A stretch of 64,000 bases of DNA from Zymoseptoria tritici IPO323. Its lineage: Eukaryota; Ascomycota; Dothideomycetes; Mycosphaerellales; Mycosphaerellaceae. The stretch is taken from NCBI RefSeq assembly GCF_000219625.1, contig NC_018216.1:1674001-1738000 (forward strand), read 5' to 3'. Each line of letters opens with the position of its first letter. Position 1 is the first letter of the stretch. Positions 19,465 to 49,374 of the stretch are shown here, piece by piece. The notes below the pieces were generated by a model, which saw nothing but the letters and a program-made list of their open reading frames with translations, did not search any database and was not told the origin of the DNA. Position numbers and translations under genes: made by a program.

Positions 19465-21286
19465 TCAAGGAAAAAATCCACCAACCAATCCTCCAATATC
19501 ACCCGCATCTTCCGGGTAGACCCAAAACGCCAACGCAATTACAATATACAATCCCAAACACATACATCCCTCGAGATAGTTGCTCTTGCCGTCCTGAATG
19601 AGGTAATTCACCACCAGCACACTCAAGAAGAACACCACCGTCTCGAATCCCTTGAAGTGCAACGTCATCTCCTGACCCATCGCCCAGCCGAGGATGACGA
19701 GGAATGGGGTGACGAAGAGGGCGATTTGCATGGAAGATCCGATGGCCACGCCGATCGCCAGGTCCATCTTGTCCTTGTAGGCGACCACGACTGCGGTGAC
19801 GTGTTCGGCGGCGTTGCCGACGATGGGGAGGAGGATCAGACCGATGAATGTCTTGGATACGCCGGAAGAGGCGACGATGGAGTCGATTGAGCCAACGAGG
19901 TATTCCGCGCACACCGCGACGAGGATCGTGACGAGGACCAGGGCAATGCCCGCCGCAACAGGGCCGAGGATTTCCGGCTCGGAACCCTCGCCGTCCTCGC
20001 CGTCTTGAGCCTCAGCATCGAAGAGCGAAGCGTGGGTCTTGAGCTGGAAGACGAGGTAGAGGATGTACAGCACCAGCATGATGATGGCGGTGCCGCGGGA
20101 GAGGACGAGGATGTTCTCGACAGAGTCGGCCTTGGACTTGGAGAGCGCGGCATACATGGTCGCGGGGATGATGAGGCAGGTCGCGGCCACGGCCATGAGG
20201 GAGGACATGGTGGAGGCGACGGTTTCGTTGAAGGAGGATTCCGTGCGGCGTACTCCTGACGCGATGAAGCAGCAGCCCAGCACGAGAAGGATGTTGGAGA
20301 GGATGGAGCCGAGCATGCTGGCTTGGACGATGCGGATTTCACCCTTTTGGAGGGCCACGATGGAGACCTTGGGTTGTTTTGTTAGCGCCGTGTCGTAGGT
20401 TTATGGTTTATCATCCGTCGAAACTCACAATCAACTCGACCGCATTTCCAAACGTCGCATTCATCAACCCTCCAATCGTCTGTCCCAGCTTCACACTCAA
20501 CTCCTCCGTCGCGAAGCTCAACAACGCCGCCAACGGCACAATGGCCAAGAAGTTGACCACGAAAATCGCCGTCGGGTTGCTGTCCATCGCACCGAGCACA
20601 ATTCCCGCCGGCACGAATACCAGGAAGACGTTGACGTAGTTGCTCGCCAGCGTCAACCAGGTCAGGCGCACAAAGTTGGCCGGCATGCGCACATACCACC
20701 GACTGTCCTCGGACATCTGCTTGCTCTTTGCTTTGACTGTATGCGCTGCGTCGGAGGCGCTGGAGAGGAGAGGGGTGTGCTCGGAGGTGCCACCGGTTGC
20801 GCGACCATTGGGAGCCATGTTGTCGTTGTCGGTGTTGTTGGAGGTGGAGCCGCTACGGGCGTGTTTGGAGAATTCGCGTTTGATGCTGTCTGTTTGGATT
20901 CAAGATGGTCGCATCAGTAAGGTGGAGGTGAGGAGGTAGGTCAGGTGAGGTAGGAAGATGCTCGATCGACGACGATCTTCGGAGAAGAAAGAACAAAGAC
21001 ACGGATGGCTGATAGCGTGGTCGTGACGCCGTACGATGCGGCTCGCGCCAGTGTACAAATAAGTTTGCGCGAAGGCGGCGACGGGCTGAGGCAATGGACT
21101 ATTGATGCCAAGGCTTCGTCCGTATGTGGCGCTTGCACAGATCGTGTCTTGGGAAGTGTGATGAGATGGGAGATGAAGGGTTGGCTAGTCGGGGAATGTG
21201 AGGCGCCAAGGTGCACAGCCAGGCGGGACAAGGAGGAGGTGATATGAGGAGGACAGGATGGGAAAAGGACGGCGGAACTCACTCAT
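19465..21286 (-). CDS. Vacuolar Ca2+/H+ exchanger (CAX family, VCX1-like)
   Basis: Exons are 21283-21286, 20429-20889 and 19465-20367, giving 455 aa with consistent phases. Exon 1 is only four bases (ATGA) before a 393-bp intron. A start at the internal Met (20818, [10 protein letters not shown]) is the simpler alternative. The protein exchanges vacuolar protons for cytosolic Ca2+. It shows about 11 membrane segments, the two ion-selective repeats ([19 protein letters not shown] and [19 protein letters not shown]) and an acidic central loop ([16 protein letters not shown]). The short N-terminus lacks the long autoinhibitory extension of plant CAX proteins. Intron 2 falls inside the first repeat. 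Confidence 0.92.
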
Positions 21287-25261: not shown

Positions 25262-25924
25262 TTACCTCGACACCAAGTCCGTGGTGGCGACGTCAATGCC
25301 CATCTGATACGCATAAGTGAAGATATCCTGCGACGTCAAGATCTGCGCAATTCGACCCGAGCAATCATCGACCTCGATGATGTCCGTTCCGTTCATCCTG
25401 ACCTCATCTCCTTTGTTCTTCACACTAATAGCAACAACACATCAGCAGACATTCAATGACATCGGTCTTCATGGAGAGGTATGCACTCACGGTGTGTCGG
25501 CTGTCAGAGTCGAAAGCAGTGTCCACCTCGCGACCAACTTCTTCCCCTCTGGATCCGCAAAGATCAAGCTGTAGATGAAGCTCGCGCCGTCGCCCACGTC
25601 CAGCATCCACTTGAGCAACGCCTGAGAGTCGTGGACATCCACGCGTACCATGACGGTGGGCTCGTTGGGAATGTTCTGCTCGAGGCGATAGTCGGTGATC
25701 AAGCTGACGTTTGGGACCATTGTGCGGGACACGAGCTCATCCGAGTGGTCGCCTTGCCAGACCTTGATCCAGTTTTCCATGACTTCGCCGAGGGTGAGTC
25801 TTGGCCCGGACCATGATCCGCCGCACGTAGAGTCGTTGGACGACGCTCTGGACTGGAGTATCGGGGTTGATGATGCCACGAGGCTTTGCAACAGAACCAA
25901 GGCTAGAGTCTTGATCGACGGCAT
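25262..25924 (-). CDS. Secreted SnoaL/NTF2-like protein (198 aa)
   Basis: Exons 25491-25924 and 25262-25424 are joined across a 66-bp GTGAGT...TTAG intron. MPSIKTLALVLLQSLVASS is a signal peptide. The rest fits the cone-shaped SnoaL/NTF2 fold: an N-terminal helix (LGEVMENWIKVWQGDHSDEL), then VSLITDYRLEQ, a beta-rich middle (GKKLVARWTLLSTL) and the typical closing strand pair NGTDIIEVDDCSGRIAQIL. This fold is used by cyclases, hydratases and non-enzymatic binders, and the sequence does not say which. It could belong with the peptide cluster that begins 2.4 kb away, but nothing proves it. Confidence 0.75.
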
Positions 25925-28326
25925 GATTGCTGCGTCGAGGGTCGAGTTATTGGGATGGGATGTCGTGTCTGTCCAGCATCGGTCAGTATTCCAAGTACGT
26001 TCTGCTTGTGAAGGCACGAACTGACGGAAGAAGTGGGTTTCTCTGGATCCGCTCGAAAATAGCACACAGTAGAGGACTTTGGATACTTCAACACTCGCTT
26101 CCTTCCTCCGCTTGTTATACTCGAGGCCAATCGTCCAACAGACGCCATGGTCGTACAAAATCGCCTTCGTTCGGACGCTCTAGTATCCATCGAGACAGCT
26201 AAGAGCCATATGTTCCGGCTTGGTAGCTTGGTGCGCCCCTCGGCCATGGAACAAGCAATGCCACATGTTCGATCTCAGGTCGTTGCCACGATGAGCAATG
26301 AGAGATCCCTTCACGGCCGCAATGGTGATGTTTAGAGGCCGAACCCTCCCCTGCTAGTGCCTCGCTTCTTCTTGGACACATGCATCGCCCGCCTGTACGC
26401 ACCATCGACACATGGCGTTCTTCAGACACGTGGGCGTCCATCCGATCTGGCGGAAAATATGCAGTAAGATGAGTACTCGGAGAGATGGGACATGCTGTTT
26501 CGCTTTGCCGAGACCGCTAAGAGTAGCGAAGACCGGGGCATTGAGGTGCTCGTGTGGGAAATCCTGGACATGCCGACGCGGCCCCGAAGCACCTCCGCGG
26601 TGCATATCGTACCTGAATCCGCCGCGCGAGACATTGTACTCCACGAACCTGCCAGGCGAGCATTGCCCTTGATGGGTCGGCGGTCGTGAAAGGCCTGGGT
26701 GAGGGGTTTGCCCCGAAGCGGCTAGATATTACACGATGAGATGGCTTCGCTTCCACGCTCTTCGTCGCCAAACAATCTTGGCGGTCTACTGCGCATATGT
26801 TCGACGGAGGGTGCTGCTCGATCGAGAATGTTGCTCCGGTCGCCATCATTGCGGCGAGTGGCCGGATCGTGCCTCACTTGAGGGTCGTGGGAAGTTGTGC
26901 GAATGGTCGGCGAGGTCTTGCTGAAGCATTATATCTCGCCAAAGTGATCCAACGATACATACGACCACAGATAGATGAAAAATCGGCTTCCCGTCCGATC
27001 AGCCATTGATAACCATCTAATCGCTACACTAGTACTCAAGTTGGTGACAATTGGGGAATCCGTAGTGTTGTATGTTTTTGATTTTTGCCCTTCCTGCCTT
27101 TCCAGGCGAACTGCATCCTCGTTGTGTGTCTTGTGTTCACAAGTGAGGGAAAGGTCAGTTTTGTTCTCCAGACACAGATCTTCGGCCGCTGAAAAGTCGT
27201 GGAGGGATGCAGATTCACGACCGAGAGACGACAAGTGTGGCCTTGGCACTGTCTATTTCGACGTCAAGCGCTTGAAGATACTCCAGGCCTTGCGCATTTG
27301 GGGATCATCGACTTGCTCACTCGGCTTGAGAGGATGTGGCCTGGGTGTCAGCCTTGTCTCGATGGACAATGGCTTCCAAGGTCTGTCACTCGGTGTGGCT
27401 GCGGCCGGGCCGATTGCGTTCTTCTGCCGGCGAGGAGGAACTACCTCTCGCAGCGCGGCCTAGTGTTACGAGAGGTACCTGGGAAGTTGAAACAACCGTG
27501 TTGTAATCATGTCATTCCCCCTGGACAACGCTTTGCGCAGGAGCTTGAGGCCCTTTGGTACTGGACATTGAGCAAACAGAAGGGTCTGGTTCCTGCCCTT
27601 CAAGCGATCTTCAGGCTGGATCGAGCTGAATTCAATTCCTGCTCGCGGTTCGACTTTCGTTCGAAAGAGGTCTTCTCAGAACAGGCGTTGCCTGCATTTC
27701 TACATGTTGCCCTCGTCCACTGCATTGTATTGTTGTACCGTGGTCTTGAGGATGTCCAAGCTGCCCACCTCGTCTGTCGTGGAAAGGCACACCGTGGTCC
27801 TGTCTCTTACTCGCGTTCTGGGACCTCTCTGTAGGAGCGGAGGACCAGCAGATGTAAACCAGAGAGAAGCTGGCTTTGCTGCTTCCACCGAGAGGCAAGA
27901 AGACATGAATGCAACTTGAGAGCTCGCTTGAGTACGCCCCAGATTTCAAGGGCTGTTGATGCGTTGTATGCAATGGACGATGAAGGACATGAAGATGTTA
28001 TGATGCCAACGAGGAGAGAGGAACTTGGCCGAGTTCATCGAGAGCTCATGAATGAATCAAGTAAAGGCATCGCCCGGAGGTGTTCTATAGGGACGATGAA
28101 ACTCGTGCCAGAATTTATGCGACTGTACATGGATGATGGGTGAACAACCAGCTTCCCGTTCGATCAACCCCAGTAGGCATGCGGGTGACAAGTGGTGAGC
28201 ACTGTTGTATGTCCTGCTCTTCGATTTCTGGCGGCACGAATGTGACTCAACGCGAAATATTTGTTTGGCTGCCAATCATCGGCGTGGTGAAGGGGTACTT
28301 ATATACCAGTCGAACCATTCTCTCAT
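25925..28326. other. Gene-poor stretch with a diverged duplicated flank
   Basis: No gene is supported over 2.4 kb, although open frames of 60-211 codons exist on both strands. Sequence near 26980-27090 resembles sequence at 28145-28240, just downstream of the UstYa-like stop. Shared pieces include CTTCCCGT-CGATCA and GTTGTATGT. This suggests an old duplication of the gene's 3' flank, so a decayed paralogue may lie between about 27.2 and 28.0 kb. I found no HxxHC motif there. Confidence 0.35.
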
Positions 28327-29326
28327 CTAGCTCAATGTACTCGGATCGTGGAAAATCGCGTCAGGAGGAGGCCGAACAGGCAGAAGCTCGTGCTTGCTGC
28401 CTGCATGCACAAACGCCGGGTGTTTGGCCTCCCATTGCTGTTTCCATTCAAGCAAAGCATTGTAGTTGTGACATTTGTGCTGGTTGGCGAATTTGATCGC
28501 TTCCGAATGAGGACCAGTGTAGACAGAGGGAATCAGGCCGATATCCGCCGTGCACATCAATCTTTCGCGGACATTGTCAAGGCAATGATTGATATGGCTT
28601 CGCCGGTTTGGCTCAGTGACCTTCGTGTCGTCCTCGTATTGCTTGTAGTAAGGCTTGTTGAAATACAACGCCTTTCGTAATTCATTCTGTGCATATCATG
28701 AGTCGCGTTGGATAAGTCATAGCGTTTGAGCCGTGCTTACCAGACAGTGGATGTCGTGAAAGCCCTGGATGAGCACGAAAAACCCTTCCTCGTCAGGATC
28801 TTTGTCGAACGTCCCTGGTCCATCGTACAAGTGCTCTTTCATGCTCAGTCCCACCTTCTTTCCTGTACGTGCCGGCAACAAAAACCCTCCGTCGCGGACG
28901 CCAAGATCAACCCAGGCGCGGTCGACTGCAGGACTTGGAGGTGATGTCCAACGGCTCGTAGCGTTGCCAGAACGCTCGCTGAATTCGACGAGCGAGAAAG
29001 AGCGGTCCAGGCCTGGATATGCATAGAGACCTGGGGGAAGTCTTGCGTTAGTATGGTCAGAGACAGGTCACGAAAGCGATGTTCGTACTTTCTTCCAAGT
29101 CTGGTGAGAGGCTGGAGTGTAGTCGTATCTCGTCCAACTTGAGCGTTGCGAAGATCGAGAGAACGTTCGTGGCAATCATGGCTCCAAGTACATAGAGCCA
29201 TTGGCGAGACTTCGACGACGACCGGTGTTGTGAGTGTTGTGGGTAGTTCAGCTCGTCGAGTAGACATTCCTTTTCGATATGGGCGATCGACGAGTCTTGC
29301 GATTCTGTGTCGTATGTGGACATCAT
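28327..29326 (-). CDS. UstYa-family (DUF3328) oxidase, likely RiPP-modifying
   Basis: Exons 29089-29326, 28741-29030 and 28327-28686 (introns 58 and 54 bp) give 295 aa with consistent phases. It has a cytosolic tail, one membrane helix (residues 43-63, WLYVLGAMIATNVLSIFA) and a lumenal domain with both family motifs: HDIHC at 171-175 and HINHC at 207-211. RERLMCTADIGLIP and KCHNYNALLEWKQQW follow, as expected. Family members (UstYa/UstYb of ustiloxin, proteins of phomopsin, asperipin and cyclochlorotine pathways) catalyse oxidative cyclisation, hydroxylation or chlorination of peptides in the secretory route. The tandem-repeat precursor starts 1.3 kb away on the other strand. An upstream in-frame ATG at 29359 is a possible alternative start. 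Confidence 0.9.
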
Positions 29327-29947
29327 TGCACACGTTGCGGCCCGGCCTCGAGAGAGCATGAGATCGATGTTACTGCTTCGAAAGGGAGGAAGGAACGGAT
29401 ACGAGTCGCCTGTGTAAGTACGCACCCTCCGCGCGTGGACGCTCCTGTGACGAAAGTAGTCGCCACGGTAGACTCCCGTAGCCACCCAGATTCTGGATCC
29501 ATAGCTGTACGTTCGATCGGGAATGGCTCGACATTTCGTCGGAACAACTTGACAGGGGTGGCCGAATAGGACCGAAACTCGCTCTTTCGCATGCGATGAG
29601 ATCTTTGAACTCCCACCTGTATTCTCGATCGCATTCTCGATCGCAAACGCCCGACGTTGTTCTCGCAAAGTTGAATCTCGCTGCTCCTAACGCGATTTGG
29701 ATGGTAGCACCGAAGACAAGGATTTAGAGAACTAGTTCATCCATGCTCCGTTATCGGCGCGAACTTCGCGACAAGCATCTGTCACAGATTATCGTAGAGG
29801 AAGAAACGATGACGCCACTTTTGGACCGCACGGCATCACGAATAGTATATCCTTCTTGTTTCAATGACTTTCGACAAGTGCCCGCTCACGGGGCGATAGT
29901 CCGCAGAGTGCAAAGTATATGTCGTTCGTTGAAACATCGAAGAAGAA

Positions 29948-29992
29948 GCGACAGAGTTATAAGCGACAGAGTTATAAGCGACAGAGTTATAA
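29948..29992. repeat. Three tandem copies of a 15-bp unit
   Basis: GCGACAGAGTTATAA occurs three times head-to-tail between the UstYa-like gene and the precursor gene. The first two copies are exact and the third ends the same way. It lies in the shared 5' region of two divergent genes. Confidence 0.9.
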
Positions 29993-30512
29993 CCGCCTAC
30001 ATTCCTCGATCCAGTAGGATCGCTAGCTCATTCGCTCTCGGACTCACCGCCCAGCCTATTGCCCAACCCCTGACATGCGTGAAAGACGGTCATCGATGGG
30101 TCATTACGAGGCACCAGGGGGTCCAGGGGAGAAATGCCTTTGCATACATTGCCTCGTGGAGCAAGTGCGTCAGACTGAGCAAGAAATCGCGCATAACGAC
30201 ATTTTCGCTTCAAACAACGGAAAGGACCATGTACGCGATAGACTCCAGCTTACACCCTGCAAGCGTGAGAAGCGCATATCGTTAGTAGCGATATCGCCAC
30301 TTTCAGGAAGCACGTCTTGACGGCAGCTTGCACTTCAGTGACAACTTCGATACGGAAACCAATCTCCCGGTGCCAGGAGCGGAATTTCATTCCAACTTCG
30401 GAATCGCTAGTCTCAATCGTTGAGATCGAAGACAAGACAAGACATGGAGCTGCCATCGAGTATCAACCGAGACGATCGCCATGAATGCCCAGGTCAACGG
30501 TGCGCAGAACCA

Positions 30513-30521
30513 ACATAAAAG
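30513..30521 (+). promoter_or_regulatory. TATA-like box of the precursor gene
   Basis: ACATAAAAG lies about 95 bp before the chosen ATG. The leader that follows ends in an A-rich run (AAAAAAAA) and TTTCATC just upstream of the start. The spacing suits a strongly expressed fungal gene, but the site is inferred from sequence only. Confidence 0.4.
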
Positions 30522-30613
30522 CCGCTCGCCACGCAGTCCGAACCGCTTTTCTTCTTCCAAGCACATCCCACCGAACATATCTTCTGATCAGCCAAAAAAA
30601 AACTTCTTTCATC

Positions 30614-31069
30614 ATGCACTCATCCACCATCATTGCCTTGGCGTCTGTCCTTGCTACTGGCATCGTCCACGCCCTTCCCCAGGCTGGAGTGCGCGGTGAC
30701 CGGTATGCGCGCGCGGCGGAGAACGTCAACATTCCAGTGGAGAAGAGAGGCGAGTGGGACTACGAGCCCACCCCTCACTACTACCCACCCGCCGCGGACA
30801 GCGCCAACATTCCAGTGGAGAAGAGAGGCGAATGGGACTACGAGCCCACCCCTCACTACTACCCACCCGCCGCGGACAGCGCCAACATTCCAGTGGAGAA
30901 GAGAGGCGAGTGGGACTACGAGCCCACCCCTCACTACTACCCACCCGCCGCGGACAGCGCCAACATTCCAGTGGAGAAGAGAGGCGAGTGGGACTACGAG
31001 CCCACCTCTCACTACTACCCACCCGCCGCGGACAGCGCCAACATTCCAGTGGAGAAAATAAAGAACTGA
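30614..31069 (+). CDS. Secreted Kex2-processed tandem-repeat precursor (candidate RiPP precursor)
   Basis: This is a 151-aa single-exon protein. MHSSTIIALASVLATGIVHA is a signal peptide. A short leader ends NIPVEKR, then four 26-residue units follow, each starting GEWDYEPTPHYYPP and ending NIPVEKR. Unit 4 has Ser for one Pro/Thr-region residue (PTSHYYPP) and ends VEKIKN at the stop, so the last Lys-Arg is lost. Kexin cleavage after Lys-Arg would release several identical Trp/Tyr/Pro-rich peptides. This is the architecture of fungal KEP proteins and of ustiloxin/asperipin-type RiPP precursors. The start ATG is the one that gives the signal peptide. Alternatives: a pheromone precursor (but there is no Trp-Cys...Cys pattern) or a surface repeat peptide. 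The DUF3328 neighbour favours a RiPP. Confidence 0.85.
   Translation: MHSSTIIALASVLATGIVHALPQAGVRGDRYARAAENVNIPVEKRGEWDYEPTPHYYPPAADSANIPVEKRGEWDYEPTPHYYPPAADSANIPVEKRGEWDYEPTPHYYPPAADSANIPVEKRGEWDYEPTSHYYPPAADSANIPVEKIKN
30749..31060 (+). repeat. Four 78-bp tandem coding repeats
   Basis: Units begin at 30749, 30827, 30905 and 30983. They are nearly identical even at third codon positions: unit 2 has GAA for GAG, unit 4 has TCT for CCT and a changed end. This implies recent expansion or gene conversion rather than old conserved repeats. Confidence 0.95.
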
Positions 31070-32366: not shown

Positions 32367-34447
32367 CTATGGAAGGCTGAGGAAAAATTCCAGTGCCTCT
32401 TTGTACTTGAGCACCCCAAGCCCAGTGACCGGATCCCATCCCTTGGCAACCGGGAAACCAGGCTGATCACAATTACCATTGGGTCGTCCATCCGTGATGT
32501 CACGGATGAATTTGTCCGCGTACTTGTACAGCGTTGGATTGAGAAAGCCAACGGGACCTTTGCCCACGTACATCCTCTCCAGATTGATGCGAGAGATCAT
32601 CGAGGCCACCACATGAACCGCAGCCGAAGTGCCTCCAGTCGTGCCCAGAGTGTGTCCATTGCCTCGGACGTAGACATGGTCCCCAAGGGCGGAGATGTCT
32701 GGAACGCCGCGGCCCAACGTGGAGTAGTGGCCATACTCTCCACTTTTGACTCCCGTCTGGTAGATCTGATGGATCGTGGTGTTGAGCGCTTGTGGCATGG
32801 GAAGATCGGGTGCAAGTGCAGCGAAACCTAGCGCATCGATTTTGGTATTGTCCAGGTATCCCCCCACGGCTGTCGACTGCCATGATGGTCGATCGTAAAC
32901 TGCGGAAATGCCGCCAGACGATTGCCACAATGTCTGGGGGTTGCGACCGTCCAACGCCTCCTCTGGAGAAGAGTCTGGATCCGTTGGGTCCGCACCGTCC
33001 TTGATCTGAGTTCCTCCAACTCCGGTCACATAAGGGCAGTTCGCGGGCCAAGGTACACCCCACATGTCTCCCTTCGGACCATAGCATGTGTGACCACCGT
33101 TCGCTATACCCCAGTCGCCGACCGCGTAGATGAACGATACGCCTTGCAAAGTGAGCTTCATGAATTCGTTGCACTGACGACGCTGATAGGCTCTGCGAAG
33201 GAGTGTTAGCGCTTGTGCAGCGTCTCGAAACATTTCTCGACACCCGACTTACAAGGGAATGTAGTCTTCAGTGGCATCCCAAGAAGATGCAATGACTTTA
33301 GGCGGGTTGATGGTTCCGCAGTCCTTATTCTTGACCTCGCCGCCTAGTCCAGGGTAATCGCCGGTCTCACCATACGCGGTGTAGGTGCAATACGATGCTG
33401 TAGATGTTAGCACATATCGCATGGCTTGGATGAGGAATACTTACCATCCAGGGCGTCGAGCATCAGGTTCATGTATCCGGCATTATTTGTTTGATATTCC
33501 TTCGGACCCTCGTTCAACAACACAATCTCCGCAGGGTATAACAGCGGATACGTCACGTCCAAATCGATGTTCGTCTCTTCAACGTAACCTCTGTATTCGG
33601 CCTCAGGTTCAGGTGCGCCAGCAATATTGTATGACTTCGGATGAGTGCCTTTCGGGATATTGGTCTGAGTACTGAAGAAGGTGTCCAGACTGAGCTGATC
33701 CCAGGGGTCATTGCCGGTCGAGTATATGGCGTGCTCGTAACCTGCAACTGCTTTTGGCGGAGTGTCTGGGATGCCGTATAGCTTTTTGATGCATTGAGGC
33801 GACATTCCTGTGACGTTGCATGGTATATCGCGGGCGCTGAGCAGATCACGCTCTTGGATGGGCGGAATTGACGCTTCTCCTGGCTCTTCGTTGCTCGGAC
33901 TTCTTTTGTTCACTTTCGGCAAAACTGTGCCTGGAGTGATGTAGTCCAGGTGTCTACGAACATGCTCCGGTACGTGATAGATGTCGGTTGCCGGCACGCC
34001 GCGCCGAACCAAATCGTGGTGGTGGTAGTGGTATTCGGTCTCCAGCAAGCTCTCCAATTCAGAAGTCGTCGCCATGAACCGAAGATGTCCCTTGTGCAAG
34101 GTGTGATCAATGTCCCTCGCGATGGTCTCTTCGATCCACTGACGTACGGCATCGATGGTCTCGTCGGTGGGGCGGAAAAAGTCTTGCACTTGTTGAGCAG
34201 TCCAGTGTTTGCCATAATTGAGTGAGTCGGGATCTGACACGTCCATCACGCAGTCTTCAGCCTTGTCAAGGTTTCCCATGGTGAGGGCGATTTGAACATC
34301 GTGTACCGCGTTCGGCTCGACACGTTGATGCTTCGTCCATCCTTCTGGTAGGCTTTGCCGATGCTCACACGGTTCAGCAACCGGCGCCGCTTCGAGAAGA
34401 GTGTACGATAAGCTGGCGGCAGCCAGCCATAATTTTGTGCACCACAT
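32367..34447 (-). CDS. Secreted sedolisin (family S53) serine-carboxyl protease, tripeptidyl-peptidase-like
   Basis: Three exons give a protease of about 640 aa. MWCTKLWLAAASLSYTLLEA is a signal peptide. A pro-kumamolisin domain spans roughly residues 30-180 (LNYGKHWTAQQVQDFFRPTDE, HVPEHVRRHLDYITPG) and ends at a KR-like processing zone (NKRSP). The catalytic domain shows the Glu-x3-Asp pair in YVEETNIDLDVTYPL, the oxyanion Asp region (SFIYAVGDWGIANG) and the Ser in TLGTTGGTSAAVH. A Ca2+-binding end follows (FIRDITDGRPNGNCDQPGF, AKGWDPVTGLG). Such enzymes cleave tripeptides or act as acid endopeptidases outside the cell. It is convergent with the precursor gene. Its use in peptide maturation is only a possibility. 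The start is the first ATG; an upstream GTG-led frame is ignored. Confidence 0.9.
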
Positions 34448-35629
34448 TGGCACGTACTCGTTGTAGCGAGAAGATCACACTGCTTTCAAGGATACCGTAA
34501 CTTGAGGAATGTCTGTCCGTGACCGAGGACAGGCGATCCATTTCATAGTCTCGCGATAAGTGTCCAGGTGCTCCGATGAGGAAAGGCTAGCGCTGCGACT
34601 TCGTCGGGACGGGGAGGCGCAGCTCGACGAGGGTCGGTCAAGTCGAAGGACCAGCCGGGTTCACCGTAGCTCTATCCCGGTATTCGGGACTCCCTGGTAC
34701 ATCGCGTGAGCGCATCGAAGAGGCTGTCGTTTCGGCATACTCAGAGGACGTTCACAATCTTCGCAGCAGAGGTAATGATCTGTTCTCGGTCAACGAGGTC
34801 ATTGAAACAGTCAGGGGACGGAGCGCCTACTTTACCGATGCGAACGCCTCCCGCGCGCCACGAACCCTTGACCTAAGTCGAGTTAACCGAGCCTCACCTG
34901 GTGTCCTGGTCATTGGATCGCTCAAAGGTAAATAAGATGTGCGAACAAGGATGAAACCTTGATGACTTACCTTGCCCTGCGATTTTGCACAAATACCGCA
35001 CAAAATCCGAGCGCCTAACTTTTGCTTCAAGGAAAATCTAGGCATATCGGACGTGTTGTGTGAGTGGACATCACAAGCTGAGAATGAGCGCACCGTGACC
35101 AGGCTTCCGTGCTTGGCCTGTTGTAGGCAGCGAGGAATGACCGTCTCGTCTGGCTAATCATAGTATTGGCAACGCTCAAGCTTGAAAGCAAGGGCCTGTA
35201 TTCAAGATGTCTTTTATGGTCCTTCTCACCGCTATCCGGGATTGTGCTGCGCATTTTCACGGACTCAGAGTACATCGAAGTCCCGGATGCTTATTTCCCC
35301 CATCTCGCTGACTCTAGACATTGCTCAGAGGTGCTTTGCTGCTATGACTGCATTCTCTTTTCGTGGAGCTTGGGACTGGTCGTATCGTGCGGGTGAAGCG
35401 GTGGAGGAGTATTTCAGGGCGTGCTGAAGTTGGGGACTCAGACAGCGGGTCGACCAGACGCCTTGTGGACCGGCGGAGGTCGCTGGTGAGGAAACGGAGA
35501 CTGTGATCGTAACATGTTGTTCTGTGGTCCGTAGAGGAACGGTGGTTGCAGTTCACACGCGGTGGTGGTGGTGGCGGTGGTGACAAATGAAGTCGATACC
35601 CCTCCCGCAGGGTTTGCTCTGGCTCCGAT
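34448..35629. other. Protease promoter and unexplained open frame
   Basis: On the plus strand, 34594-34936 is open without an ATG and reads protein-like pieces such as ERIEEAVVSAYSEDVHNL, ending at a GTAAAT donor-like site. I could not place other exons, so it is not called as a gene. Nothing else is seen. Confidence 0.35.
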
Positions 35630-43196: not shown

Positions 43197-44385
43197 TCAT
43201 GCCTTCACCCTCATCCCACCAACCCTCTCCAACCGCTCCGTATCAGTTCCACCACTCTTATTCCAGTCTCCACCAGCTCGTCTGCCCAACGCTCTCCTCA
43301 GAATCCATTCCTTTGCCGTAATGACTTCATCGTCCTTACCACTACCCTCCGTTCTTCGCTCCTCATCAATCATCTTACTACCGTCCAAGACTTGCAGTAG
43401 CACATCATCCTCCGGCCTACTGAAATACACCAGACTATAACGTGTCGACCTCGCCTGTTCGCCAGGTGGATTAACAACACGATGAATCTAAAACAGCACA
43501 ATCAGCACGCTCATACCATCATCAGACAACATGAAAGGGGAAGGAACTCACATTACTCCTCAACACCCCACCACTAAACTTCACCATCGCATCCCCCAAA
43601 TTCACCACACAATGCCCCTTCAACGGCCTCACAAACCTCCACTCATTCTCCCCCGGCGGCAGCACCTGCAATCCTCCCAATCGATTGAACAGAACCGTCA
43701 CACTTCCAAAGTCCGTATGCTCGCCCAACGCCGCCTGCTGCGCATCCATCGCCTCTTCTTTCGGCGGCGAGCGTACCCATCGGACTTGATCTCCACTATT
43801 CGCTTGCAGACGATGGAGACTTTCCAGTTTGCCAGCCGGTAAGCCAAGCGAAGCATCCAACAGCTGCAAGACCAGTCTCACGATACCATGACTCTGCTCA
43901 ATAAACGTCTTCAACAATTCCCGACTCTCCTTCCGCTTCAGAATCTCCGGGTTAACAATCGGCTCGCTAAGACCAAGAATATCATCTTTGGAAATATTCC
44001 AAAACTCATTCCGGTCGCGTGTACCTTTGGCATCGATGACGCCTTGTCCAAGACCTTTGTAGCCGTAGTATGAATTCTGATCCATGAGGTCGTATTGCTG
44101 TTTCTCGTCCACTGGTAGAGCGAAGACTTGCTCGCCCAGGCGGAAGAGATCATCAGTTGAGTCGAGAAGGGTGTGGCCGGATATGTCGCCGGATGAGGCG
44201 GAGCGGAGGTCGAGGTAGAAGAATCCGAGGTCGCGGCAGGCGGAGAAGAGGCGGGATATTTCTTCTGGGTCGGAGGCGAGGAGGCGGTTAAGGTTGATGC
44301 GGAGGAGAGGCGCGGATGGAATGTCGGAAGGGAATGGTGGGAGGGAGGGAATGGAGAGGTCTTCTCCTTGTTCGATCGAGCCCAT
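43197..44385 (-). CDS. 2-oxoglutarate/Fe(II)-dependent oxygenase (isopenicillin-N-synthase-like)
   Basis: Exons 43552-44385 and 43197-43487 (64-bp intron) give 374 aa. The N-terminal DIOX_N part includes RLFSACRDLGFFYLDL. The jelly-roll core has the iron ligands in GEHTDFGSVTVLF (His, Asp) and NIHRVVNPPGEQARSTRYSL (His), plus the 2-oxoglutarate-binding Arg in RYS. The intron sits just before the last ligand. Such enzymes hydroxylate, desaturate or cleave small molecules, and the substrate cannot be read. Neighbours give no pathway clue. An extra 50-residue charged C-terminal segment (TEGSGKDDEVITAKEWILR) is common in fungal members. Confidence 0.88.
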
Positions 44386-45012
44386 GGCGGTGAGATGGTA
44401 TGGCGGATGTTTGTCTCTGTGGATGGTGATGGGGCACGAGAGAGATCGAGGACGAAGAGACTGGCGTCTACTTACAGTTTGGCAACGACCGCGGCTATTG
44501 TTTCGTCCTCATCTTGGTACCGCATAGAAGTCTACCCATTACCCCGCCTGGCTCGAAGGCGCGCCGTTGGAGAGCTTCTTATTCGCCGACACGCTAGATG
44601 GAAATGGAAAGCGCAGGCCAGAAGAGGACGTCACTAAAGTGAAGGGGTCCCCGGGCCCAGGCCGGAAGTCTTCAGCGATGCGGTCATGAGAAGATCTGAG
44701 AGGTGCGTTACTGAGGACATTACAATTTCGATACACTATCAACAATCTGACCGTTCTACCCTATCCCAACCTTCATGCCATGGTCTCATAGCATCCAAGC
44801 ATGTCAAGACGCCGTGTCCAGATGCAGCTGAGAGCTCTCATGTTTCCGATGCCGGTTGCATCAAGCCGGCTTTGGACCAACTCAATCGACCGACATCATG
44901 TTTTTCGTTCCCATATTGTACGATGCATACAATCATGTGTCATTGTTGACTACTGGTAAAGGTCAGCAAGCTCACAACCGACGGGACAACAGCACCACGT
45001 ACCTGTTCATAT
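44386..45012. other. Intergenic spacer
   Basis: This is the oxygenase promoter and the 3' flank of the HEX1 gene. Nothing distinct is seen. Confidence 0.45.
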
Positions 45013-47334: not shown

Positions 47335-49374
47335 CTAACGGTTCTCCACATGATGAATGGAAACACTCTTTCCTTTCATCCTCTCCTCGTCATCGTCGTC
47401 CACCTCAGACTCCTCCCCGCCGTTCCCCTGCAATAGCCTCCCTCTCGCCAGTCTCGGCACGGTATCTCTCAACGCACCTTTGACAATACCACCCTCGAAT
47501 AACAGATGGATGGACTCCAACGGGACGCCTTTCGTTTCGGGAATGCAGAAGACAGTGAACACCACCATCAAAATACAGCAGGAGCCGAAGAGCAGGAACG
47601 TCCCGTAGGTGATCTTGGCCAGCATGATGGGTGTGATCTTAGCGATGATGAAGTTGAACAGCCATTGGGTCATGAGTGCTGCTGCCATGATGAGGGAGCG
47701 GACGTGATTCGGCTGTACTGTGGTCAGTGCTTGGTATCAGTCAAGGCAATAGTAGAACTCACAGAGCACTCTGCAGACAGCACAAACGGTACAGGACCCC
47801 ATCCGACTAATAGAGATGTTAGCTGACGAGTCGAATGACGGCCACACCCTCCCGATGTCACTCACAGCTGTAGAACACCACAAACAAGTACACGCAGATG
47901 ATGGCGAAGATACTGTTTCCGTTCAACGGCGATCCCGGAGCGACAGGATTGACGGCCTGGTTGACGCCGATGTAGAACATGGCAAACGCCTGGCCTGCTC
48001 CTCCAACGATGAGCGACCACTTCCTGCCGACCTGCTCGGTCGCAAAGCACAACCCGAGCGCAGTGACAACGACCTTGACCACGCCGTAGATGCCAGTAGC
48101 GAAGAGTCCGGCCGACCTACCTTCCAGCCCTACCGCCTCAAAGATTTGGGGAGAATAATAATTAATTGAATTCGTCCCGGTCCACTGTTGCCAGAACATG
48201 AGAGACACGGCCATGGCGAAGGTGTAGAAGACTTTGCCGCTCGAGCAGGTCGCTTTCATCTGGGCAAGCAGAGGCATTTTCTCGTGGCCTTGGAAGTCCT
48301 GGACGATGTCCTCGAGCTCGCGATCGACGTCCGGGTGGTCGAAGGTCTTTCCGCGGACTTGTGAGAGAGCTTTGCGAGCGGCTTCGACCTTGTTCTTTTC
48401 GACGAGCCTGGAATGTCGTTAGTCGGGCGCATGAAATTGAAGAACTGCAAACCCTACCATCGAGGCGACTCGTTCTGGAACACAATACCAATCAAAAGGA
48501 GTGCTCCAGGAAGCATTTGCAAAGCGAAAGGAATCCGCCACTGCGACGAGGAGGTGCTGGACACACTCTCATTCACGCCGTAGTTGACAAAGTACGACAG
48601 CATGATTCCAGTGACACTGTCATATCGTCAGTCGAACAGTTTCACACCCACCGAGAGAATTCAACTCACTTGAACAACTGCATGCAACCGATGCACCGAC
48701 CACGAATCTCCTTGTTCACGTTCTCGCCCACGTACGTTGGAACGACAGCGGAGATCATGCCTACTCCAAAGCCGCCAATGACACGTCCGACATAGAGCTC
48801 AGCCAGACCCCGACTGTGTAGACCAGCACACGTCTGGATCAAGCTGCCGAGGATGAAGATGACATCCGCAATGATCAGCGCTTTCTTACGGCCAAACGTG
48901 TCGCTGGTGTAGAAGCTCGACATGGCGCCGAAGAAGCATCCAAGTTGGAGCACCGATACGATGTTTCCAGAAAGACTGGCGAACCGATCTGGCTGGTTGA
49001 CCTTGTCGAGTCCGAAGCTGAGATCGTCAGCGATACTTCTCAATGAATATTCTAGTACTGCCTCACCTGTCCTGAAAGCTCTTCATCGTCAAGACCCCGC
49101 CTATGAGGCCAGTGTCCCAACCGAACAGCATTCCACCGAATGATGCTACGGCGGTCAAGAGGTATGCTCGGCGATACTGGACGATGTCCTCCCAGATTGT
49201 GGGCTTCTTGGGCATAGTGGCTTCCATGGCTAGGGTCGAGTCGAGTGGTCGGTAGTTGCCACGAGTTTCGGGATCAAAGAGCGTCCAGAAGAGAGCGCTT
49301 CCAGAAGTCGGAGCTGGGTCTTCGAGTCTTTGCTTGCCAGTTCTCCGACGATGGCGGAAGAGGAGGGCCTTCAT
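47335..49374 (-). CDS. MFS sugar transporter (sugar porter family)
   Basis: Several short introns split a 12-helix transporter starting MKALLFRHRRR. Helix 1 has GGMLFGWDTGLIGGVL. Loop 2-3 carries DTFGRKKALI, helix 4 RVIGGFGVGMISAVVPTY, and loop 6 a long cytosolic helix set (LVEKNKVEAARKAL). Helix 7 shows QQWTGTNSINYYSPQIF, the sugar-binding QQ..G.N..NYY motif, and the end has PETKGVPLES. This is the hexose/quinate-type sugar porter group at the plasma membrane. Specificity is not readable. The tail is acidic then basic (EVDDDDEERMKGKS). Intron boundaries were checked by motif continuity, not base by base. Confidence 0.88.

Follow-up and report, generated by a model that had tools for sequence, protein, structure and literature searches.

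A candidate dikaritin-type RiPP locus in Zymoseptoria tritici: a UstYa-family gene head to head with a Lys-Arg repeat precursor gene

A 64,000-nucleotide stretch of the Zymoseptoria tritici IPO323 genome (C3:1674001-1738000; hereafter the window, whose own numbering is used for its features) carries two neighbouring genes that form a candidate locus for a fungal ribosomally synthesized and post-translationally modified peptide (RiPP) of the dikaritin type. One encodes a protein of the UstYa family (DUF3328, PF11807), and the other encodes a precursor with a signal-peptide-like start followed by units separated by Lys-Arg (KR). The two genes lie head to head, 1.29 kb apart (Table 1). An earlier interpretation of the same DNA from its letters alone (the sequence-only reading) had described this divergent arrangement and placed the pair between 28327 and 31069. 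The start codons indeed point apart, and these two positions are the last bases of the UstYa and precursor stop codons, respectively. The region between the start codons contains a 15-bp repeat, which was sought in 40 examined loci and was present only in the two that overlap the window.

The UstYa gene is intact, with two introns that both have canonical GT-AG borders. In a Pfam profile search its product matched PF11807 with 129.7 bits (E=1.9e-37), far above the cut-off of 25, and the HDIHC (residues 170-174) and HINHC (residues 206-210) motifs named in the sequence-only reading are borne out. Their residues H170, H173, C174, H206, H209, and C210 do not vary across the nine sequences aligned, two of which represent the same Z. 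tritici protein. Hydropathy analysis revealed a single hydrophobic, transmembrane-like stretch at the N-terminus (residues 43-61). Studies on CctR indicate that DUF3328 proteins with HxxHC(x)nHxxHC are copper enzymes (PMC12435403). The window protein combines this motif with one N-terminal transmembrane helix, as judged by hydropathy, and so has the sequence features of a DUF3328 copper oxidase. A 294-aa protein deposited for Z. tritici ST99CH_1E4 fits the gene model: it matches over the full length, and one residue is different. A profile search of solved structures with the enzyme gave nothing significant (best E=0.38).

The precursor gene contains a 78-bp tandem array at 30712-31056 with 97% matches. 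The sequence-only reading had described a signal-peptide protein with KR-separated units, and hydropathy agrees, with hydrophobic residues at positions 6-20. It had also counted four identical units. Units 1 to 3 do encode the same protein sequence, but unit 4 carries three changes, which result in Pro to Ser and in Lys-Ile-Lys-Asn in place of the final Lys-Arg. Because unit 4 lacks the closing KR, the 24-residue peptide predicted earlier would come from three copies only, whereas the last copy would yield a 28-residue piece. The stretch before the first unit ends in AENVNIPVEKR, and the unit's own end is ADSANIPVEKR, so that the precursor has five linkers (the final one broken) versus four cores. 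As the leader carries the linker NIPVEKR without a core, we read GEWDYEPTPHYYPP as the core and AADSANIPVE as the linker or follower. The likely 14-residue core, GEWDYEPTPHYYPP, contains three Tyr and one Trp.

A chance origin of the repeat was rejected: in none of 2000 shuffles of the precursor protein did the number of similar dibasic-bounded units reach three. Outside the precursor, the 64-kb window, which was the only local control, has no KR array with at least three units. Because the DNA itself is tandem, Arg-Arg-bounded units appear in other frames of the array too; the reading frame was therefore chosen on the basis of the signal-peptide-like start and a protein of strain ST99CH_3D7 that uses this frame. 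The one Pfam match of the precursor, DUF1285_N, is below the cut-off (E=0.00076). A tblastn search of the precursor against plasmids yielded none, and an NCBIfam search with three proteins yielded no match.

Table 1. Features of the locus in window positions, with further candidate precursors of the genome in the last line
Feature	Position	Strand	Details
UstYa-family (DUF3328, PF11807) gene	28327..29323	minus	exons 29323-29089, 29030-28741, 28686-28327; 294 aa
Intergenic region between divergent start codons	29324..30613		1290 bp; candidate shared promoter
15-bp repeat AAGCGACAGAGTTAT	29946-29992		three perfect copies, between UstYa and precursor genes
Precursor gene	30614..31069	plus	single exon, 151 aa; signal-peptide-like start, short leader, four units
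Leader copy of linker AAENVNIPVEKR	30713..30748	plus	no core before it; last 48 bases agree with the end of unit 1 at 37 positions
Unit 1, GEWDYEPTPHYYPPAADSANIPVEKR	30749..30826	plus	26 aa
Unit 2	30827..30904	plus	protein equal to unit 1; one silent base change
Unit 3	30905..30982	plus	DNA identical to unit 1
Unit 4, GEWDYEPTSHYYPPAADSANIPVEKIKN	30983..31066	plus	Pro to Ser; without closing KR
Sedolisin (S53, tripeptidyl-peptidase-1-like) gene	32367..34474	minus	span of two open reading frames; adjoins precursor
Further candidate precursors near UstYa matches	L020, L022, L024, L025, L029, L035		head to head except L025

The published working definition of Kex2-processed repeat proteins (KEPs) asks for a signal peptide and for three or more tandem repeats, each 8-100 aa long and flanked by dibasic sites (PMC7329392). 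The precursor has three complete KR-to-KR units of 26 aa and a fourth without the closing KR, together with a signal peptide by hydropathy, and is a KEP under this definition. A dikaritin cluster, as defined for Venturia, is a DUF3328 gene near a kexin-repeat precursor (PMC9632046), and here the UstYa gene lies divergently beside such a precursor. The candidate dikaritin-type RiPP reading proposed from the sequence thus gains support from both definitions, and also from the recurrence of such pairs in the genome.

The whole genome (39.69 Mb, 21 contigs) was searched with the PF11807 profile, which gave 61 matches, two of them below the cut-off. Matches at most 6 kb apart were merged into 32 loci, one of which (C6:1989371) consists of a sub-cut-off match alone. 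Twenty-nine of the 32 loci were examined, in 28 stretches (20 of about 10 kb and 8 of 5 kb) and in the window; the stretches cover 28 loci, as two of them lie on one locus and one spans two. An open reading frame (ORF) was scored as a KR-repeat ORF if it contained two or more similar segments bounded by KR. Such an ORF was found near 8 of the 29 loci (the window, L020, L022, L024, L025, L026, L029, and L035), with a gap of 0.8-2.6 kb to the nearest UstYa match. The repeats are unrelated among the eight loci by eye, for example DPEAQRGGIMDYIKR, SISPSVESYDGASVEEKR, YEGDVEWKDKTKR, and TDDGDDAAVYAYAPSKR.

A signal-peptide-like start was located by hydropathy upstream of the repeats, on the same strand, at seven of the eight loci, and the window pair is one of these seven. 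At the eighth, L026 on C13, both strands carry repeats, more than one frame is involved, and no such start was found. Six of the seven pairs are divergent (P=0.0013 versus one in four) and L025 is convergent; with the doubtful L026 included, the count is seven of eight (P=0.0004), both P values having been computed after the divergent pattern had been noticed. L029 has only two full units, of 56 aa, and falls below the published KEP rule. At L024 the signal-peptide-like start runs into another same-strand open frame, also with dibasic repeats, and at L035 it runs into a frame with repeats but without KR. The precursor frame at these two loci is therefore ambiguous, while the strand is certain.

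Two other places in the genome carry related gene content. A KR-repeat protein with a signal-peptide-like start and the unit GEIANNPNPVYTVPEVERSKLQERKKR is encoded on C9 (L010 1453-2163, about 31.9-32.6 kb). It was found via its weak likeness to the window precursor, and the genome's best UstYa match is about 11 kb away. On C4 (L013 and L019, C4:1680300-1696699), an S41 peptidase, a tyrosinase, and several UstYa matches represent a phomopsin/ustiloxin-type make-up.

Kex2 cuts at Lys-Arg in the secretory pathway, and DUF3328 proteins oxidize the core of the precursor (PMC6514808, PMC9233826, PMC12435403). In the window, both genes are intact, the repeat array with its KR sites and the UstYa motifs are in place, and the pairing recurs in the genome. 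We consider it probable that this is a minimal dikaritin-type RiPP locus, in which a Kex2-cut precursor supplies the GEWDYEPTPHYYPP core and the UstYa enzyme oxidizes it, probably with crosslinking at Tyr/Trp. The precursor, whose hydropathy suggests secretion, would enter the secretory pathway, and Kex2 would cut after each KR to give three GEWDYEPTPHYYPPAADSANIPVE 24-mers and one longer last piece. The membrane-bound, presumably copper-dependent UstYa enzyme would then modify the core at Tyr/Trp in the Golgi lumen; the crosslinking of these Trp and Tyr side chains remains an inference, as in the sequence-only reading. Trimming would be carried out by a carboxypeptidase, perhaps also by the adjacent tripeptidyl-peptidase-1-like sedolisin. 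The putative product would most likely be a small secreted peptide aimed at the plant or at competing microbes.

Relatives of the precursor were sought in a protein database of about 5.8 billion, from which the 7995 candidates sharing most words with it were scored at E up to 1. One homologue was found among them, in Z. tritici ST99CH_3D7. It has 121 aa and consists of two full units and a third that starts GEWDYEPTSHYY and is followed by an unrelated end; four fragments of this end are absent from the six frames of the window. The 3D7 homologue may be a true shorter allele, that is, a repeat-number variant, or an annotation artefact. The earlier statement that no described product with this core is known holds for the material searched, as the sole homologue is from the same species and four core and linker fragments had no text match in 5.39 million papers. 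Titles and abstract beginnings of the literature on Zymoseptoria RiPPs, UstYa proteins, and KEPs contain no report of the locus, supplementary KEP and antiSMASH lists being outside this search. The core sequence thus appears new as far as searched, and the kind of locus is already known: a DUF3328 gene is among the 15 closest genes for 1758 of 7878 KEPs (22%), most frequently the adjacent one (PMC7329392), and nine putative dikaritin clusters have been described in Venturia inaequalis (PMC9632046).

In the same survey, 78% of KEPs lack a DUF3328 gene within this range of neighbours (PMC7329392), so that use without such an enzyme is common. The precursor could accordingly be an ordinary KEP whose signalling or effector peptide stays linear and unmodified, with the UstYa neighbour acting elsewhere, and gene closeness is no proof of a shared pathway. 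We regard this as unlikely. The pair is head to head, as at five other KR-array loci with a signal-peptide-like start, and the core is rich in Tyr/Trp. In the survey, Tyr occurs in 65.6% of the repeats of KEPs with a DUF3328 neighbour versus 38.2% of the others (PMC7329392).

Another explanation concerns the chemistry of the enzyme, which might oxidize the peptide by hydroxylation or a similar reaction without forming a ring. CctR, a membrane-anchored, lumen-facing DUF3328 protein with a binuclear copper site, is a copper-dependent hydroxylase, but its substrate is a non-ribosomal peptide (PMC12435403). In ustiloxin and asperipin-2a, crosslinking depends on, or has been connected with, DUF3328 proteins encoded next to KR-repeat precursors (PMC6514808, PMC9233826), and asperipin-2a requires one UstYa homologue (PMC6514808). 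Oxidation without a ring is, on this comparison, rather improbable.

The locus could also be silent or decaying and make nothing. In the last unit the KR is lost, and in the 3D7 homologue two full units are followed by unrelated sequence that begins inside the third. However, both frames are intact, the splice sites are canonical, the units are nearly identical, and the UstYa protein differs at one residue in strain 1E4, which leaves decay with a small probability. An alpha-type mating pheromone precursor would share the build of a signal peptide with KR-separated repeats, but this candidate was rejected on motif and Ste13 signature and its probability is negligible: neither Dothideomycete pattern (PYG[L/M]P[I/V]G; two conserved Cys) is present and the unit has no Cys (PMC6339444), no X-Ala or X-Pro follows KR, and pheromone KEPs, with three exceptions, have no DUF3328 neighbour (PMC7329392).

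Several results weigh against a crosslinked dikaritin-type product. The other 21 of the 29 UstYa loci yielded no KR-repeat ORF. In the C4 cluster, which has several UstYa matches besides tyrosinase and S41 matches, the scan found none either, which shows that some precursors escape it. No precursor homologue outside Z. tritici was present among the 7995 candidates scored, and conservation beyond the species therefore gives no support. A structure prediction of the UstYa enzyme from eight sequences was poor (mean pLDDT, the predicted local distance difference test, 43.2) and was not used. DUF3328 proteins have also been linked to hydroxylation and halogenation (PMC12435403), so proximity does not prove a ring. 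Titles and passages of the literature on UstYa crosslinks revealed no Trp-crosslinked dikaritin.

Asperipin-2a from Aspergillus flavus (AprA/AprY) is the known system that the locus resembles through its single UstYa homologue; a KR-repeat precursor and a Tyr-rich core are also shared. The asperipin-2a type comprises a UstYa homologue, a precursor, a transporter, and an isoflavone reductase, and this four-gene cluster is described without a tyrosinase (PMC6514808); likewise, none is near the pair here. The cores differ (FYYTGY versus GEWDYEPTPHYYPP), and a partial scan of the window, which included no reductase search, revealed no counterparts of aprT and aprR next to the pair. The only transporter-type matches among the window ORFs of this partial scan were a Sugar_tr exon (47861-48418) and a Na_Ca_ex ORF (19468-20400).

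Ustiloxin and phomopsin (UstA/UstYa/UstYb/UstQ; PhomA/PhomQ) also start from a signal-peptide KR-repeat precursor and a DUF3328 enzyme. Their clusters have a Tyr-x-Ile core, a tyrosinase, and an S41 peptidase, a family whose gene belongs to phomopsin-like clusters (PMC6514808), whereas the core here lacks Tyr-x-Ile and neither enzyme is near. On the contig, 656 kb separate the locus from the nearest tyrosinase (PF00264) match, and the three S41 (PF03572) matches of the genome all lie on other contigs. Across the genome, 2 of 14 tyrosinase places and 2 of 3 S41 places are within 6 kb of a UstYa match, none of them at this locus. Membership in the ustiloxin/phomopsin type was therefore rejected.

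Epichloecyclin (GigA) shares four KR-bounded repeats, a Tyr core, and a plant-associated fungus as the source (PMC6514808); its core, as described, differs from GEWDYEPTPHYYPP. The Venturia clusters represent the same kind of evidence in a plant pathogen, from another species and likened by description (PMC9632046). Within the genus, the Zymoseptoria KEPs of type G-10 have the core YVIP, and 41 of 45 members have a DUF3328 neighbour (PMC7329392). The ustiloxin/phomopsin motif EDYXI has been reported for Z. tritici (PMC6339444). The core described here differs from both, and neither this locus nor the examined UstYa stretches yielded an ORF with at least two copies of Y[VA]I[PG].

Genome mining has already pointed to RiPPs in this species. 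antiSMASH assigned a fungal-RiPP class among the clusters of three Z. tritici isolates including IPO323, and one Z. tritici cluster is 10% like ustiloxin, with 6 of 7 genes raised in infection stages B and C (PMC8939313). The fungal-RiPP class is among those with most metabolite associations (PMC9548119). By term search, the 2017 survey of Z. tritici clusters does not mention RiPP, ustiloxin, or DUF3328 (PMC5561558). In Mycosphaerella (Pseudocercospora) fijiensis, 11 DUF3328 genes were higher in infected leaf and none was higher in culture (PMC5006380).

Eight relatives of the UstYa protein were obtained among 820 candidates scored. Besides Z. tritici, they come from Bipolaris victoriae (51%), Z. 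brevis (52%, partial), four Pseudocercospora species (42-45%), and Apodospora (30%). Judged by its pattern of similarity, the Z. brevis protein is not a simple orthologue of the window gene. Its best match in this genome is the window gene (53-54%), and its last 41 residues match C6:1414280-1414402 (L040) at 85% with an internal stop, so its counterpart here may be a relic. No precursor related to that of the window was seen in 4 kb around this C6 match.

Septoria blotch is a major disease of wheat. A crosslinked ribosomal peptide from the locus, if true, would be easily overlooked, because its precursor resembles a repetitive small secreted protein and the protein search recovered a homologue from the gene set of a single strain. 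The pairs of UstYa and precursor genes in the genome, with their unrelated cores and mostly head-to-head order, offer a natural enzyme-core set to study substrate choice by UstYa proteins. The recurrent head-to-head arrangement is the part of most interest to the specialist, and a term search of the main text of the KEP survey returned no mention of gene orientation or promoter (PMC7329392). A bolder proposal, which is possible but which we hold to be doubtful, is that Z. tritici contains a set of one-enzyme/one-precursor head-to-head RiPP modules with shared promoters and private cores. The present module would make a Trp/Tyr-crosslinked GEWDYEPTPHYYPP peptide, its dose varying by repeat number between strains, and would use the sedolisin as a new trimming partner of the UstYa pathway.

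The sedolisin gene is the neighbour beyond the precursor and encodes a candidate trimming peptidase, a putative member of the cluster. A Pro-kumamolisin activation domain was recognized in one of its ORFs (E=4.2e-36); among solved structures, tripeptidyl-peptidase 1 is matched by both ORFs (E=4.1e-13 and 1.5e-23). The catalytic Glu/Asp region was hard to place by eye. The genome has 12 S53 matches, counted as 10 genes, 3 of which have a UstYa match no more than 6 kb away; uniform placement would give 0.11 (P=0.00015). Since the 6-kb limit was fixed after the locus had been seen, and 2 of 9 genes remain when this locus is left out, the association is best treated as a lead.

Ten ORFs or parts of ORFs in the window gave nothing above the Pfam cut-off. 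Elsewhere in the window, a complete 5S ribosomal RNA gene match (74.7 bits) lies at 26957-27076 on the plus strand. The ORF at 25490-26179 (minus) has no Pfam match and shows an internal signal-peptide-like start, with 145 aa from that Met as judged by eye. A 2OG-Fe(II) oxygenase-like ORF is located at 43525-44508 (minus), about 12 kb past the precursor.

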